Assembly (NCBI RefSeq): GCF_028278985.1 | Contig: NZ_JANQTA010000002.1 | Coordinates: forward strand, 1-64,000 | Source of the DNA: Candidatus Nitrosopumilus sp. | GTDB lineage: Archaea; Thermoproteota; Nitrososphaeria; Nitrososphaerales; Nitrosopumilaceae | Direction of reading: 5' to 3' | DNA: 64,000 bases | In this document: positions 19,322 through 37,537 of the stretch, in pieces | Layout of the letters: each line of letters begins with the position of its first letter | Position numbering within the stretch: position 1 is the first letter of the stretch | Translations under genes and position numbers: made by a program | Notes under the pieces: model-generated | The model's input: the letters and a program-made list of their open reading frames with translations, nothing else | The model's database searches: none | Told to the model about the DNA's origin: nothing

Positions 19322-20347
19322 ATGAACTCTATTGCAACTCTTGGTTCTCACTGTTCATTACAAGTCCTAAAAGGGGCAAAAGATGAAGGTCTTAAAACAC
19401 TGCTAGTTTGTGAGAAAAGACGTGAAAAATTATACAAGAGATTTCCATTTATTGATGAATTAATCATAGTAGATTCTTTTAAAGAAGTTCTTGATCAAAA
19501 ATGCCAATCAATTTTAGAACAAAACAACGCCGTATTGATTCCTCACGGAACTCTAATTGCTCAAATGAGTTCAGACGAGATTGAATCAATCAAGACTCCA
19601 GTTTTTGGAAATAAATGGATTCTCAGATGGGAATCAGACAGAGAGATGAAAGAGAAACTCATGAGAGAAGCAAATCTTCCAATGCCAAAACCTGTAACTA
19701 ATCCAAGTGAAATTGAAAAACTATCCATTGTAAAAAGACAAGGCGCAGCTGGTGGAAAAGGCTACTTTATGGCAGCAAATGAAGAGGATTACAATACTAA
19801 AAGAAACCAGTTGATTGCTGAAGGAGTAATTTCCAAAGATGAAACATTATACATTCAAGAATATGCTGCAGGTGTTTTGGCTTATTTGACATTTTTCTAT
19901 TCTCCACTAAAAGAAGAATTGGAATTTTACGGAGTTGATCAAAGACATGAATCAGATATTGAAGGTCTAGGAAGAATTCCTGCTGAACAACAACTAAAAT
20001 CAGACAAGGTACCATCATTCAATGTTATTGGAAATAGTCCACTTGTGTTGCGTGAATCATTACTAGATGAAGTATATACAATGGGAGAAAATTTTGTTGA
20101 AGCTGCAAAAAGAGTTGTGGCACCTGGCATGAATGGCCCATTTTGTATAGAGGGAGTGTATGATGAAAATGCAAAATTCACATCATTTGAATTTTCAGCT
20201 AGAATTGTAGCAGGTTCAAACATCTACATGGATGGCTCACCATATTACTCTCTATTATTCAATGAAACAATGAGTATGGGAAAAAGAATTGCAAGAGAAG
20301 TAAAACTTGCATCAGAATCAAATCAAGTAGATAAAATTACTACTTAG
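19322..20347 (+). CDS. purP: Formate-dependent FAICAR synthetase PurP
   Basis: The archaeal enzyme that uses formate and ATP to formylate AICAR in the penultimate step of IMP synthesis. The N-terminal domain (IATLGSHCSLQVLKGAKDEGL) and the ATP-grasp core with the glycine-rich VKRQGAAGGKGYFMA and a terminal EFSARIVAGSN metal/phosphate segment match PurP. Length (341) is typical. It overlaps the convergent phnE by 8 nt at its 3' end. Confidence 0.9.
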   Translation: MNSIATLGSHCSLQVLKGAKDEGLKTLLVCEKRREKLYKRFPFIDELIIVDSFKEVLDQKCQSILEQNNAVLIPHGTLIAQMSSDEIESIKTPVFGNKWILRWESDREMKEKLMREANLPMPKPVTNPSEIEKLSIVKRQGAAGGKGYFMAANEEDYNTKRNQLIAEGVISKDETLYIQEYAAGVLAYLTFFYSPLKEELEFYGVDQRHESDIEGLGRIPAEQQLKSDKVPSFNVIGNSPLVLRESLLDEVYTMGENFVEAAKRVVAPGMNGPFCIEGVYDENAKFTSFEFSARIVAGSNIYMDGSPYYSLLFNETMSMGKRIAREVKLASESNQVDKITT

Positions 20348-21131
20348 ACTCAGTAGTTACTTCCATACCATGTTGAGATTTTACAATATACTTATCTCTA
20401 ATCTTAACACTAACCCAATCAATTGCTAGCACAGTGATCAATACAACAATCATGAATATTGCAGCTTTGCCATATTCAAAGAATTTAATGTAATTGATAA
20501 TATAGAATCCAATACCACCTGCACCAACTAATCCTAGTATGCTGGTTTGTCTTACATTATAGTCAAACATGTAGAGAACTTGACTTAACAAGTGAGAAGC
20601 AGATTCAGGAATTACAACATATCGAATTAGTTGCCATTTTGAAACACCAATAGAACTTACTGCATCCATAGGATCTGCATCAATTGTTTCAATTGCTTCA
20701 TACTGTAATTTTGCAACAAAACCTAGAGTATACATGATAATGGCTAATACTCCTGCAAAAGGACCAAGACCCACCATAATTACAAATAAAATTGCCCATA
20801 AAATGGAAGGAAAAGTACGAATTGCTGCTAATAATGCTCTGATTGGTGCATAAACATACTTGCTGTTCAAATTTCTTGCAGCAAGTAAACTAAGTGGTAA
20901 TGCTAATGCTACACCAACAACAGTTCCAATAAATGCCATCTGAATAGTTTCAACCATTGCCCATAGTGCAGTAGGAATATGTTTTGGTTCAACAAGCAAC
21001 ATTTCCTCTAAAACAATCCCAAGATTTGGCAATCCTTCAACAAATTCAATTGGATTTGCTTCTACGTTGTAAGATGCTACTACTAAAAGTGCAATTATTA
21101 CACCAATAATGATATTATTTTTTGGTGTCAT
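20340..21131 (-). CDS. phnE: Phosphonate/phosphate ABC transporter permease PhnE
   Basis: A 263-residue inner-membrane permease with about six membrane segments and the EAA-type loop (EAIETIDADPMDAVSSIGVSKWQLIRYVVIPE, conserved Gly at SIG) that docks the ATPase. The RTFPSILWAILFV and RQTSILGLVGAGGIG stretches are typical of PhnE. It is the last gene of phnD-phnC-phnE and overlaps phnC by 17 nt. A single permease gene implies a homodimer. Confidence 0.93.
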   Translation of the reverse strand: MTPKNNIIIGVIIALLVVASYNVEANPIEFVEGLPNLGIVLEEMLLVEPKHIPTALWAMVETIQMAFIGTVVGVALALPLSLLAARNLNSKYVYAPIRALLAAIRTFPSILWAILFVIMVGLGPFAGVLAIIMYTLGFVAKLQYEAIETIDADPMDAVSSIGVSKWQLIRYVVIPESASHLLSQVLYMFDYNVRQTSILGLVGAGGIGFYIINYIKFFEYGKAAIFMIVVLITVLAIDWVSVKIRDKYIVKSQHGMEVTTESK

Positions 21132-21945
21132 CGGAATACATCTCCATGATTTCTTCTGTAGTCATATTACCTGTTTGAAAATCAACAATTTTGTCACCTT
21201 CAACACCAATTTCAAGAACTTTGTTACCTTCTTTGATTACCGCAACACGATTAGCATATTCTAGTGCAAGTTGCATATCGTGATGAACCATAATGGCAGT
21301 AAGATTGATTCGTTTCTGAGCATCTGCAATCAAATCCATTATTTCTCTTGCAGTCACATGATCAAGTTCTGAAACAATTTCATCTGCTAGTAGAATTTTG
21401 GGCTTTTGCATTAATGCACGGGCAATAGCCACCCTTCGTTTTTCACCACCACTTAACATGTAGGCTTTTCTATCTTCTTTTCCAGATAATCCAACCTGTT
21501 TAATGATTTTTTTAGCTTCAGAGACTTCGTTTTCTGGAAATTTTTTAAACATTGATTGAATTTTACTTAATCTTGGCAAACATCCAATTATGACATTCTC
21601 TAGTACTGTGAGATTTTTTACAAGACCAAGATTCTGAGGAATGTAACCAATAGTATGCATCATTTTTTTGAATTTTTTTTCATTCATGTTTGGAGTCATA
21701 TAATCAATTTTGATTGTACCATTACTTGGAATCATCATTCCATTCATTAATTTCAATAAAGTAGATTTTCCAGAACCTGATTGACCCACTATTGCATAGT
21801 TTGTCCCTCTATCGATTGAGAGATTGATATGATCTAATGCAAAATTCTTTGAATCATATGATGTAGAGACATCATTCATCTGAATAATTTTCTTTGTAGA
21901 AATTAATGAAAAAGAAGGAGTATTGGTCATCTGAATTTGTTTCAT
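21115..21945 (-). CDS. phnC: Phosphonate/phosphate ABC transporter ATPase PhnC
   Basis: An ABC ATPase with Walker A VGQSGSGKSTLLKLM (~55), Q-loop IGYIPQNLGLV, signature YMLSGGEKRRVAIARAL, Walker B KILLADEIVSELD and the H-loop VHHD. Asp-Glu is replaced by DEIVSELD, the usual PhnC form. Seventeen nt separate it from phnD and it overlaps phnE. The N-terminal ~18 residues before IIQMNDVSTSYD look dispensable, so a later start is possible. Confidence 0.93.
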   Translation of the reverse strand: MKQIQMTNTPSFSLISTKKIIQMNDVSTSYDSKNFALDHINLSIDRGTNYAIVGQSGSGKSTLLKLMNGMMIPSNGTIKIDYMTPNMNEKKFKKMMHTIGYIPQNLGLVKNLTVLENVIIGCLPRLSKIQSMFKKFPENEVSEAKKIIKQVGLSGKEDRKAYMLSGGEKRRVAIARALMQKPKILLADEIVSELDHVTAREIMDLIADAQKRINLTAIMVHHDMQLALEYANRVAVIKEGNKVLEIGVEGDKIVDFQTGNMTTEEIMEMYSDDTKK

Positions 21946-21962: not shown

Positions 21963-23051
21963 TTATTTGCTCTTGTTGTATTTGTCTAGAATCAACTGAT
22001 CAAGACCTGTTAATGCGTTAATGAAGTTACCAAACTCACCAATGTGCATAGTTGTAGTTGTAGGAACAAGTGCTTCTGCACCATACAAGTCCTTTAGAAT
22101 GTAATTGTGCTCATCATAATTGAGTTCAATTAATGCATCAACTAATGCGTTTTTGGTAGAATCAGACATGTCTGCACTAACCATGAATACGTGAGAAGGA
22201 ACTGGACCAATTGTGGTAACTGGACGCAATTTCTTTTGATCCTCTAATTCAAGGTATTTTGCAGGTGCAATATCAGAGCCAAATGCAACATCAACATTAC
22301 CATTAAGGAGTAATTCTAATGCTGCCTTGTATCCACCAGCAAAAGTATAACTTTCAAAGTTTTTTGCTAAAGCGGATTCTAATGCTACAATATCGTCACC
22401 TTCGATTGTGACATGTCCATCAGTCACTAAGGTTCCCATTGGTCTAACAAAACCAGAAGATCCAGTAATGCTAGTAAATGCTACTTTTTTGCCAACAGCA
22501 TCTTCAATGTTTTGAAGAGAGTCATTGTCAGCTAATGTCCAAACTGTTGCTTGATAATTTACTTTACCTTTAACAAGTTCAGCCAAAACTGCTTCTGCTC
22601 CTGTTCTTTCATGGGTAATCCATGCAGGGCCTGTATCCATAAAGGCAGCATCAATGTGACCAAACTTCATTCCTTCAATTATGGTTTCATAATTGGTTGG
22701 TACAACGATTTCAACATCAACACCTAATTCAGCTTCAAGGAATTTTTCTAAAGCTTCAGCCTTAGGAGTTAATTCATCAGCCTTTTCAACTGGAATAAAT
22801 CCAATTGTTAGTGTGTCAACATCGACAGATTTTGAATCAGATGAAACATTGATGATACCATTTTCTACAAGAAACTCAATTCCGTTTAGAAAAGTTGCAT
22901 CATCTACGGCACCCTCTGCCCACCAACCAGCATTGGTTTTAATCCAATCAGGAAGAGAACCTTGTGCTTGAGCGGTTTGTGTCAATGGAATTGTTGCCAT
23001 GCCAATAGCTGCAAATGCAACAACAAATGCCATGATTGTTTTTTGTTTCAT
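21963..23051 (-). CDS. phnD: Phosphonate/phosphite/phosphate-binding protein PhnD with N-terminal WIKxxAxWWA module
   Basis: An extracytoplasmic binding protein of 362 residues. After a signal peptide (AFVVAFAAIGMATIPLTQTAQAQ) comes a ~40-residue module with SLPDWIKTNAGWWAEGAVDD and GIEFLVENGIINV, a motif found repeatedly in thaumarchaeal envelope proteins. The PhnD fold then follows from about residue 75 (LTIGFIPVEKADELTPKAEALEKFLE), with the ligand-site TSITGSSGFVRP and DVAFGSD segments. There is no lipobox Cys. Substrate could be a phosphonate, phosphite or phosphate. Its promoter (23082-23131) carries the operator shared with the wHTH pair. Confidence 0.92.
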   Translation of the reverse strand: MKQKTIMAFVVAFAAIGMATIPLTQTAQAQGSLPDWIKTNAGWWAEGAVDDATFLNGIEFLVENGIINVSSDSKSVDVDTLTIGFIPVEKADELTPKAEALEKFLEAELGVDVEIVVPTNYETIIEGMKFGHIDAAFMDTGPAWITHERTGAEAVLAELVKGKVNYQATVWTLADNDSLQNIEDAVGKKVAFTSITGSSGFVRPMGTLVTDGHVTIEGDDIVALESALAKNFESYTFAGGYKAALELLLNGNVDVAFGSDIAPAKYLELEDQKKLRPVTTIGPVPSHVFMVSADMSDSTKNALVDALIELNYDEHNYILKDLYGAEALVPTTTTMHIGEFGNFINALTGLDQLILDKYNKSK

Positions 23052-23081: not shown

Positions 23082-23131
23082 TATTTAAACGGGTTTTTCA
23101 TTCTAAATTGACATTCTAAATCTCTAGAATG
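23082..23131 (-). promoter_or_regulatory. phnDCE promoter with CATTCTA-N6-TAGAATG operator
   Basis: On the minus strand a TATA box lies at 23082-23092 (plus strand TATTTAAACGG), about 35 nt from the phnD ATG. Just upstream is a perfect 20-bp palindrome, CATTCTA (23112-23118), six bases, TAGAATG (23125-23131), plus an extra direct half-site CATTCTAAAT at 23099-23108. The same TATA decamer and palindrome layout precede the wHTH genes at 24107-24151. Confidence 0.65.
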
Positions 23132-23139
23132 AGAACAAG

Positions 23140-23301
23140 TTATACTAATTTCTCTATATGGACAATGTCATCTTCAGTGCCGAAGTAGCGCTTTTCATGG
23201 CAACTCTCACAAACTAACCATTCAGGCTCATATGAACTCCCTTTTGCAGGCCTATATCGGATTTTATACATTGGCGTATGAGATTTGTTGCATGTATCCA
23301 T
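23140..23301 (-). CDS. 53-residue zinc-finger microprotein
   Basis: A short frame between phnD and the wHTH genes. The product starts MDTCNKSHTPMYKIRYRP and contains a later WLVCESCHEKRYFGTEDD, giving Cys4-His8 and CxxCH as probable zinc ligands. A TATA box (TTATATATCA on the minus strand, plus 23322-23331) lies about 26 nt before the ATG, so the message is probably leaderless. Codon use and the metal-ligand spacing argue for a real gene. Function unknown; its 3' end lies close to the phnD operator. Confidence 0.7.
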   Translation of the reverse strand: MDTCNKSHTPMYKIRYRPAKGSSYEPEWLVCESCHEKRYFGTEDDIVHIEKLV

Positions 23302-23394
23302 ATAACCAAAAGTGGGATTTTGATATATAATTTAATTACAAAAGTTTCATTTCTGGAAAAAAACTACTTTTGTCAGTAATTTTTCATACATAAT

Positions 23395-23745
23395 CTACAG
23401 GCTCGATTTTGGATTATCTGTATTTGGATAGAGATTAAGACTAGGTTCCAAATTATCCAAAGTTATTTCCACTTTACCTATTCTACTTCGATACATTTTG
23501 ATTTTTTTCCCCTCAGGAGAAATAACGAATCTATCTACTTCAGCTAATGCCAAATCTTCCAAAGTTGACAGGGTCTTGTAAACAGTAGATATTGAGATTT
23601 TGAGTTCTTCTGCAATTTGTGTTGCATCTTTTGATTCATTTTTGACTGAAAACAAGACTGAGCGAGTACAAACATTACTTAATGATTCAATAATTTTTTG
23701 AGTAATGTCAAATTCAGATAATTGGATAATGTTAGGTTTAGACAT
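23395..23745 (-). CDS. Winged-helix regulator, second of a tandem paralogous pair
   Basis: A 116-residue single-domain wHTH protein. Helices FDITQKIIESLSN and TRSVLFSVKNESKDATQIAEEL precede the recognition helix (ISISTVYKTLSTLEDLALAEV) and a wing ending KKIKMYRSRIGKVEI. It is clearly a duplicate of the gene 4 nt upstream (23750-24082), with matching DITQK, STVYKxLxxLE and YRSRI blocks. Four nt between them and equal size suggest co-expression and possibly a heterodimer. No ligand domain is present. Confidence 0.85.
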   Translation of the reverse strand: MSKPNIIQLSEFDITQKIIESLSNVCTRSVLFSVKNESKDATQIAEELKISISTVYKTLSTLEDLALAEVDRFVISPEGKKIKMYRSRIGKVEITLDNLEPSLNLYPNTDNPKSSL

Positions 23746-23749
23746 AGAA

Positions 23750-24082
23750 TCACTTGTTTGGAATTAATGTTAATGATGGTTCGGGTTTTTTAATTGAAAT
23801 GTCTGCCTTGCTAATTCTACTTCGATAAACTTTGTATTTTCTACCTTTATCAGATAACATCCACTTTTCAACCTCAATTAATGTTAGTTCTTCAAGATCT
23901 GCTAGTTTTTTGTAAACAGAGCTTAGAGGGATTTTGAGTTTTACAGAAAGTTCAGCAGCAGTGTTTCCTTTACGAATTATAGAAAATAGAATAGCTCTTG
24001 ATTCAGTATCAGCTAATGCTTCAATTACTTTTTGAGTAATATCATATTTTTTTAATTGAGGTAATGTTAACTTTCTAGACAT
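23750..24082 (-). CDS. Winged-helix regulator, first of a tandem paralogous pair
   Basis: A 110-residue wHTH protein (YDITQKVIEALADTESRAILFS, recognition region IPLSSVYKKLADLEEL, wing with KYKVYRSRISKADI), paralogous to the next gene downstream. Its promoter carries the same palindrome as the phnD promoter, so the pair probably controls itself and phnDCE. It could also act on the neighbouring cbtBA genes; only the operator match supports the phn link. Confidence 0.85.
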   Translation of the reverse strand: MSRKLTLPQLKKYDITQKVIEALADTESRAILFSIIRKGNTAAELSVKLKIPLSSVYKKLADLEELTLIEVEKWMLSDKGRKYKVYRSRISKADISIKKPEPSLTLIPNK

Positions 24083-24106
24083 TAAATTTCAAAACAATGG
24101 ATGATG

Positions 24107-24151
24107 TATTTAAACGGAATCCTATGATTCTCATTCTATAGATTTAGAATA
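24107..24151 (-). promoter_or_regulatory. Promoter of the wHTH pair with operator matching phnD's
   Basis: The TATA sequence TATTTAAACGG (plus strand, 24107-24117) is identical to that of phnD and lies about 29 nt from the wHTH ATG. CATTCTA (24132-24138), six bases, TAGAATA (24145-24151) matches the phnD palindrome in arm sequence and spacing, with one changed end base. It sits 1 nt from the end of the cbtA gene. Confidence 0.65.
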
Positions 24152-24152
24152 T

Positions 24153-24884
24153 CTATGTGTAAGATTCAGGTATTTGCTTATGTGGACGAAATTTGTTCCA
24201 AAATAATCCCAAAATCAAGCCTACAGATACCCAAAAAGTAGATACCCCAAGAACTGACATTAATCTAAATTCATTTACCAAATCCATAGGGGCAGTTACC
24301 TCATCAGGATTTTCTGGCATTGCAAAAAACACTGAGGATATGAAAACAGCATATCCAATTAATGCAACCAACTTTTTGTTTGATTTGAATTTCTTTGATA
24401 ATTGGTAAAATCCAACTGCACCAAAACCCGAGATTGCAATAAATGATAAATATAAAATTGCACGTAAAACGACAGTTTCACCATCCCCAACAGTAGGAGG
24501 ATTTGCCGGATATTTGAGGAAAGGAATTAGATATAGAGTAAACCACATTATTCCTGCAAGCAAAAATGCTTTCTTTACATCAGTATTTCCAGGTAATGCA
24601 TGTCTAGATAATGCATAGACTATTCCAAATAAAGCACCAATAGAAGTTCCCAAAATTGCACCAGCTAAAACTTGTCCTCCTTTTTGCCAATCACGATATG
24701 CATCATATTCTACCCAAAATTGCGGAGTGTCCTCTTCTTCACCTGACTCAAACAAGTTTTGATTTTCAATTCCTATTGCCTCATCAAGGTAAGGCTCAAC
24801 AATTCCTAAATTTACAATTCCATGAATTGTGCCAGATATAGCACCTGAAACCAAAACAATAGCTAAGAACAATACAGTTTTCAA
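24153..24884 (-). CDS. cbtA: Probable cobalt transporter subunit CbtA
   Basis: A 243-residue integral membrane protein with six to seven hydrophobic segments. The opening VLFLAIVLVSGAISGTIHGIVN, the YDAYRDWQKGGQVLAGAILG loop and the SRHALPG segment resemble CbtA of predicted B12-linked cobalt transporters. It follows the small cbtB gene by 11 nt. Cobalt supply for cobalamin is the likely role, since this group makes B12 and uses it. Its stop lies next to the wHTH operator. Confidence 0.82.
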   Translation of the reverse strand: MKTVLFLAIVLVSGAISGTIHGIVNLGIVEPYLDEAIGIENQNLFESGEEEDTPQFWVEYDAYRDWQKGGQVLAGAILGTSIGALFGIVYALSRHALPGNTDVKKAFLLAGIMWFTLYLIPFLKYPANPPTVGDGETVVLRAILYLSFIAISGFGAVGFYQLSKKFKSNKKLVALIGYAVFISSVFFAMPENPDEVTAPMDLVNEFRLMSVLGVSTFWVSVGLILGLFWNKFRPHKQIPESYT

Positions 24885-24895
24885 ATTAAAGACAC

Positions 24896-25111
24896 CTAAT
24901 GGCAGGGAAATCCTGCGGCATGTCTCATGTCATGAGTTAGTTCATGAATGTAAAGATCCTCAAAAGCTTGCTCCCCTAAAACAACGCTAAAGGTGTGACC
25001 TTGATCATATCCAACAACAAACAATCCTGCTACAAATATTGCTGCTAAAACCACAATTCCCAAAATAGGAGTTGATGATTTTGAAATTGTTACGTTATTT
25101 GTATGAGACAA
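24896..25111 (-). CDS. cbtB: Probable cobalt transporter subunit CbtB
   Basis: A 71-residue protein with one membrane helix (ILGIVVLAAIFVAGLFVVGYDQGH) and the C-terminal His/Cys signature HELTHDMRHAAGFPCH typical of CbtB, probably a metal-collecting tail. The start is a TTG at 25111, supported by a TATA box (25133-25140) 25 nt upstream, so leaderless. Metal transport role follows from the family and from cbtA directly downstream. Confidence 0.85.
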   Translation of the reverse strand: MSHTNNVTISKSSTPILGIVVLAAIFVAGLFVVGYDQGHTFSVVLGEQAFEDLYIHELTHDMRHAAGFPCH

Positions 25112-37464: not shown

Positions 37465-37537
37465 TCCACAAGTTTCTTTTTATTCTATAATCTTAGAATC
37501 TTAGAAATTTTTTATCTTAGATTGCCGTAATAATACA

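Follow-up and report, generated by a model that had tools for sequence, protein, structure and literature searches.

What does the phnDCE cluster of a Nitrosopumilus-like archaeon import, and why does it share its promoter signals with two winged-helix genes, w1 and w2, that lie next to it? Ocean surveys count phnCDE of Nitrosopumilus maritimus among the phosphorus genes (PMC13018155, PMC12753310). The downstream pathway is missing, C-P lyase being reported absent; a phosphonate role has already been doubted for that reason, and Qin et al. concluded that phnCDE of ammonia-oxidising archaea (AOA) either transports some other substrate or does not function (PMC7490402). A second puzzle concerns iron, which seems to limit marine AOA in surface waters: N. 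maritimus, which needs iron, has no diagnostic, known or otherwise recognised iron transporter (PMC6776035, PMC9723733). The operator evidence described here joins these two gaps, a phnCDE with no assigned substrate and an N. maritimus with no iron transporter. The initial annotation of the locus proposed an autoregulated circuit for phosphonate or phosphate uptake; we favor, at a probability of roughly 0.6, a reading in which w1 and w2 govern an autoregulated metal (most likely iron) uptake regulon and "PhnDCE" is probably a metal importer, not a phosphonate importer.

The genome (G000; 1.69 Mb in 32 contigs) is Nitrosopumilus-like, and the window, that is, the whole stretch of 64,000 nucleotides that was analysed, is G000:C3:1-64000. 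On the minus strand the genes follow the order cbtB-cbtA, w1, w2, a small Cys-rich ORF and phnD-phnC-phnE, with the following features:

20340..21131, minus strand: phnE-like permease
21115..21945, minus strand: phnC-like ATPase
21963..23051, minus strand: phnD-like, 362 aa: substrate-binding protein whose ligand pocket is altered and whose N-terminal domain is of the NAGWWA type
23082..23092, minus strand: BRE/TATA of phnD, CCGTTTAAATA
about 23098..23108, minus strand: extra half-site of the phnD promoter, ATTTAGAATGA; its AGAAT ends 10 bp before TATA
23113..23136, minus strand: operator O2 of phnD, GTTCTCATTCTAGAGATTTAGAAT; the asymmetric 24-mer of O1, with its orientation relative to TATA reversed
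23140..23301, minus strand: Cys-rich ORF, 53 aa, CxxxH...CxxCH, between w2 and phnD
23395..23745, minus strand: w2, winged-helix regulator paralogous to w1, 116 aa
23750..24082, minus strand: w1, winged-helix regulator, 110 aa, lacking Cys and His
24107..24117, minus strand: BRE/TATA of w1, CCGTTTAAATA, 24 nt ahead of the ATG
24127..24150, plus strand: operator O1 of w1, ATTCTCATTCTATAGATTTAGAAT, which reads ATTCTAAATCTATAGAATGAGAAT on the strand of w1; kept in 80/80 related loci
24153-24884, minus strand: cbtA, constant upstream neighbour
24896-25111, minus strand: cbtB, constant upstream neighbour

w2 is probably co-transcribed with w1. The Cys-rich ORF was matched by a strict pattern in just 2 of the 80 related loci and is therefore probably dispensable for the circuit. 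The N-terminal WIKTNAGWWAEGAVDDATFLNGIEFLVENGII domain of PhnD (residues about 20-75) repeats in many other reading frames genome-wide, often in tandem; this genome has 37 matches to PhnD, nearly all to these residues, and the domain is a module, as yet without a name, that belongs to secreted proteins of Thaumarchaeota.

How specific are the shared promoter signals? As first annotated, the palindrome CATTCTA-AATCTC-TAGAATG lies ahead of phnD (23112-23131), CATTCTA-TAGATT-TAGAATA lies ahead of w1 (24132-24151), and the two promoters have a common TATA core, TATTTAAACGG (23082-23092 and 24107-24117, respectively). In the window, TTCTA-N6-TAGAA occurs three times (0.11 expected), and TATTTAAACGG is found only in these two promoters (0.05 expected). 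Across the whole genome, CATTCTA-N6-TAGAAT with zero mismatches is present at phnD, w1 and C6:40107; a refined 23-mer, TTCTYATTCTMKAGAYTTRGAAT, allowed up to three mismatches, recovers the phnD and w1 sites plus one site with three mismatches; and the composite TTCT-N8-AGAA-N8..27-TTTAAATA has exactly two matches in 1.69 Mb, the sole promoters in which operator and TATA box are combined: those of phnD and w1. Simulation of 2 Mb of DNA by a first-order Markov model puts the expected number of sites with a PWM score of at least 15 at about zero. The palindrome is thus not scattered at random. Two other sites were rejected as regulatory elements: C6:40107 falls within a coding sequence, at its end (by eye, that of a universal-stress-like protein), and the third window site (37483-37498) has gene ends on either side and no TATA. 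The palindrome at the latter position, TTCTATAATCTTAGAA, stands isolated between gene ends at 37476-37499.

The whole shared element is larger than the palindrome noted initially: it is one asymmetric 24-mer, ATTCTCATTCTATAGAYTTRGAAT, which carries three half-sites (TTCT, TTCTA and TAGAA), made up of the core TTCTA-N6-TAGAA flanked on just one side by an outer TTCT half-site. This 24-mer faces TATA in opposite orientations at w1 and phnD. The phnD promoter has an additional half-site, TTTRGAATGA, which ends 10 bp before TATA and occupies the place of the near core half in FTR1 promoters. Both operators are upstream of BRE/TATA; the TATA-to-ATG distance is about 24-31 nt, and transcripts are therefore expected to be leaderless or nearly so, with that of w1 probably leaderless.

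Is this architecture kept in relatives? The wHTH pair is retained in nearly all same-genus genomes of reasonable completeness. Upstream regions, once oriented, yield a sharp footprint; in a set of 80 related loci (flanks up to 6 kb), it is conserved ahead of w1 in 80/80 and ahead of phnD in nearly all. Genus-wide, the composite pattern marks almost only w1, phnD and FTR1, with few matches to a reversed control pattern. In its strict form, it precedes w1 in 57/80 cases, phnD in 24/53, FTR1 in 6/9 and cbtA in 3/72; it precedes none of the purP (0/57), w2 (0/79), phnC (0/52) or eRF1 (0/57) genes. When phnD is relocated away from the pair, as in G010 and G023, the operator is still there, if weak in G023. 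This phylogenetic footprinting, together with the genome-wide specificity, strongly supports the original proposal of an autoregulated circuit that links the wHTH pair to the adjacent transporter; our search of open-licence papers found no description of this regulon. At one locus (L147), phnDCE lies in inverted orientation on the opposite side of w1, and its operator remains 23 bp before its TATA box.

Who reads the operator? The structures predicted for w1 and w2 (pLDDT 84 and 82, respectively) each comprise one winged-helix domain plus two additional strands at the C-terminus; their nearest fold is Phr (2p4w), and CzrA, SmtB and NolR are also close. The TrmB domain (PF01978; cut-off 25.6 bits) scores 25.8 in w2 and 23.0 in w1, and HTH_5 (PF01022; cut-off 22) scores 22.1 in w2 with no match in w1. 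No C-terminal sugar effector-binding domain was matched in either protein; both end about 35-40 residues past the wing. w1 is devoid of Cys and His in 72/80 loci and w2 has a single Cys in most, Cys26, found in 73/77 orthologues; replacement by Tyr in three orthologues rules this residue out as an essential sensor. No Cys/His/Asp metal site of the ArsR/SmtB type is evident in either sequence. We propose that w1 and w2, as tandem small ArsR/TrmB-like regulators, would recognise ATTCTCATTCTATAGAYTTRGAAT through its three TTCT/AGAA half-sites; the binding form would probably be a w1-w2 heterodimer or dimers that cooperate, and a heterodimer is suggested because the asymmetry of the operator is conserved and the paralogues are in tandem. 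Alternatively, a different protein might bind the palindrome, with w1 and w2 as passengers: further wHTH-family paralogues are present in the genome, and G039, which has no orthologues of the pair, has the core palindrome before FTR1. Yet no operator is better conserved than w1's own, present in all 80 loci, and no regulator other than the pair is constant; we regard the passenger scenario as very unlikely. A natural test of the need for w2 is offered by G009, which has two copies of the locus (L136, L137): in each, stop codons interrupt w2, and w1 and both operators are intact. Solitary wHTH paralogues about 45% identical to w1 are encoded elsewhere (L053, L054, L055/L244, L056); those in G002 and G041 have FTR1 or a second phnD as a neighbour. 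These paralogues, and pstS as well, are repeatedly accompanied by a secreted protein of the YKMADDIEAILTFTF type.

Would w1 and w2 activate or repress? Repression is the usual logic of iron control, and repressors make up the majority of archaeal and ArsR-like regulators. The same regulon could be run by w1 and w2 as repressors which, with or without bound metal, prevent the recruitment of TBP/TFB; the nearest fold is that of the repressor Phr, and the near half-site is just 10-12 bp from TATA. Against such a mechanism, every operator is upstream of BRE/TATA and none overlaps TATA or the start site; this is the position from which TrmBL1, Tgr, Ptr2 and TFB-RF1 activate (PMC4158304). The distance from the end of the core to TATA is 23 bp at phnD (48/53 loci), 18 bp at w1 (12 bp in an alternative register) and 10 bp at FTR1 genes, where 2 of the 9 promoters are recovered only via a variant TATA; given these measured values, the idea that the distances reflect one, two and three turns of the helix was dropped. 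Because of the operator position, activation is favored over repression, by our estimate roughly 2:1, and repression seems somewhat unlikely. Most likely, w1 and w2 would activate their own gene and one high-affinity transporter by helping TBP/TFB, with positive autoregulation as the result.

If the circuit is real, which transporter does it serve? Only the transporter varies in the otherwise constant neighbourhood cbtB-cbtA-[operator]-w1-w2-[transporter]-(purP). Among the scored loci, the slot holds phnDCE in 54, FTR1 in 10-12 (the higher count takes in two loci whose contig ends after an FTR1-associated secreted gene), a ZIP permease (PF02535) in 3 and nothing in 7; thus, some genomes retain the pair with an empty slot. 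On a quick tree of cbtA+w1+w2, the phnDCE label needs nine changes, at least six of them forced by well-supported branches; therefore, the transporter has been swapped repeatedly. This tree replaced one that included purP, which is usually displaced at FTR1 loci, so that only one of these had been kept. FTR1 was identified by Pfam and has the motifs REGLE and REGFE; FTR1 genes adjoining the pair have the operator in front, which places it ahead of a dedicated iron permease in relatives, and ZIP genes have only a degenerate form. Two genomes, G002 and G018, have both transporters, and in these FTR1 sits elsewhere with its own operator, pointing to a regulon that extends in trans. Between genomes, phnD and FTR1 are almost mutually exclusive: FTR1 is present in 2/34 genomes with phnD vs 8/14 without it (Fisher p = 0.0003, a value that ignores kinship and incomplete genomes). 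In G000, which has phnDCE, FTR1 was not found. Genomes with FTR1 and without the pair did not make clean negative controls: G019 has no operator and is 69% complete, and G039 has the core palindrome mentioned above.

As the same slot and operator serve FTR1 or ZIP in relatives, "phnDCE" is probably an importer of a metal (iron or an iron complex). The regulon would serve uptake of a transition metal, most likely iron, through a PhnDCE-like ABC system in most Nitrosopumilaceae and through the iron permease FTR1 or a permease of the ZIP family in others. "PhnDCE" is thereby a candidate for the missing iron transporter of Nitrosopumilus. These observations do not support the phosphonate or phosphate role proposed initially, nor do the absence of the operator before the bona fide pstS of G000 (Pit was not found in this genome) and its presence at a gene for a secreted cupredoxin.

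Could PhnDCE nevertheless import phosphate, phosphite or phosphonate under control of the pair, with FTR1 and ZIP as unrelated neighbours in relatives? PhnE passes its equivalog cut-off (TIGR01097; 258.5 bits vs 216.7), and the substrate-binding protein passes that of the phosphate/phosphite/phosphonate subfamily; PhnD (TIGR03431; 100 bits vs 261) and PhnC (TIGR02315; 206 bits vs 266) fall below theirs. The nearest solved relative of the substrate-binding protein is the phosphite binder PtxB, and three residues of the PtxB pocket (Y55, Y100 and S132) are retained. Picocyanobacterial PhnD1 binds phosphate (PMC10284923), and a 2025 paper proposes that AOA PhnCDE may carry phosphate (PMC12753310). 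Set against the ligand residues of PtxB (PMC5700983), however, other residues of the pocket are altered in 52/52 sequences: S130G, H160Y, the capping Y208H and its partner D22, which becomes V, I, T or L; G-S-S stands for the S-T-S of the oxyanion site, Tyr for His160 and His for the capping Tyr208. The pocket may bind an oxyanion or a carboxylate-type ligand. Loss of these key oxyanion and cap residues argues against phosphorus uptake, as do the reported absence of C-P lyase (PMC7490402), a pstS free of the operator, and the fact that the operator itself, not merely the neighbourhood, moves to FTR1, in trans as well. We judge phosphorus uptake to be unlikely. The metal reading has its own difficulties, among them the kinship to PtxB with its three kept residues, the lack of an evident metal site in w1 and w2, the genomes in which the slot beside the pair is empty, and the core palindrome before FTR1 in G039. 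In Nitrosopumilus sp. b1 (L203, 6741-7724), the same slot, together with phnC and phnE, holds a substrate-binding protein that is 29% identical, has a canonical STSG loop and may carry a different ligand.

And which metal? Stray operator matches led to a secreted repeat protein that ends in a cupredoxin domain (PF00127): in G009 and G022 (L093, L095), the 24-mer is 53 bp before its ATG, and the orthologue here (L259, G000:C2 about 11671) has an operator site with a score of 20.7. This gene is a probable third member of the regulon on the evidence of its promoters. The cupredoxin gene, cbtBA as the constant neighbour, which hints at cobalt, and a ZIP permease in the slot, whose broad divalent-metal family is not iron-specific and whose operators are weak, would suit cobalt, manganese, zinc or copper in place of iron. 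However, FTR1 with REXLE motifs belongs to an iron family, and no operator of its own was found for cbtBA; a metal other than iron is improbable. We infer iron as both signal and substrate, as we do binding and activation by w1 and w2. The most specific form of the proposal, in which w1-w2 would be a heterodimeric activator responding to iron limitation, unrelated to DtxR/Fur, and AOA "PhnDCE" a new class of ABC importer for iron or iron complexes, the missing uptake system of N. maritimus, is tentative and possible rather than probable.

In three genomes (L289:1361-1380, which is G000:C3:152361; L096:2230-2253; L105:1920-1943), an apparent TFB gene is preceded, at a distance of about 85 bp, by a core palindrome that directly follows a TPR gene. 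TTTAAATA is absent at the usual spacing from all three, and the palindrome may be a regulatory site or a 3' hairpin.

If the operator logic is right, a single reassignment would fill the iron-transporter gap and correct the phosphorus label of phnCDE, and the 24-mer regulon would provide a sequence marker of metal stress for metatranscriptomes. An iron importer here would bear on much of marine nitrification.

How does the circuit compare with known systems? PhnCDE and PtxABC have the same three-gene ABC architecture and substrate-binding protein superfamily as "PhnDCE"; they differ in that the protein here falls below the PhnD cut-off, has replaced pocket and cap residues, and is swapped with FTR1 and ZIP. 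FTR1/EfeU iron permeases of AOA use the same slot and operator in relatives but are not homologous to PhnDCE and are absent from G000. The TrmB/TrmBL1, Tgr and VNG1451C regulons of Euryarchaeota (e.g., TGM TATCAC-N5-GTGATA) likewise combine an archaeal winged helix, a palindromic operator and autoregulation, with sites upstream of BRE/TATA at activated promoters (PMC4158304); unlike these, w1 and w2 lack a sugar effector-binding domain, have another operator, form a tandem pair and have metal transporters as targets. ArsR/SmtB-type regulators and Phr of Pyrococcus furiosus, winged-helix proteins of about 110 aa, are closest in fold; in contrast to them, w1 and w2 have no metal-binding Cys/His set, their sites are upstream of TATA and not over the start, and curated ArsR models are not passed, w2 being a marginal exception. 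In DtxR/IdeR/MntR and Fur systems, one regulator controls metal permeases through an inverted-repeat operator. Here the likeness is one of proposed function, whereas the protein family and operator are unrelated and w1 and w2 lack the metal sites of those regulators. The kind of regulator is ordinary; the assignment of its targets is new.
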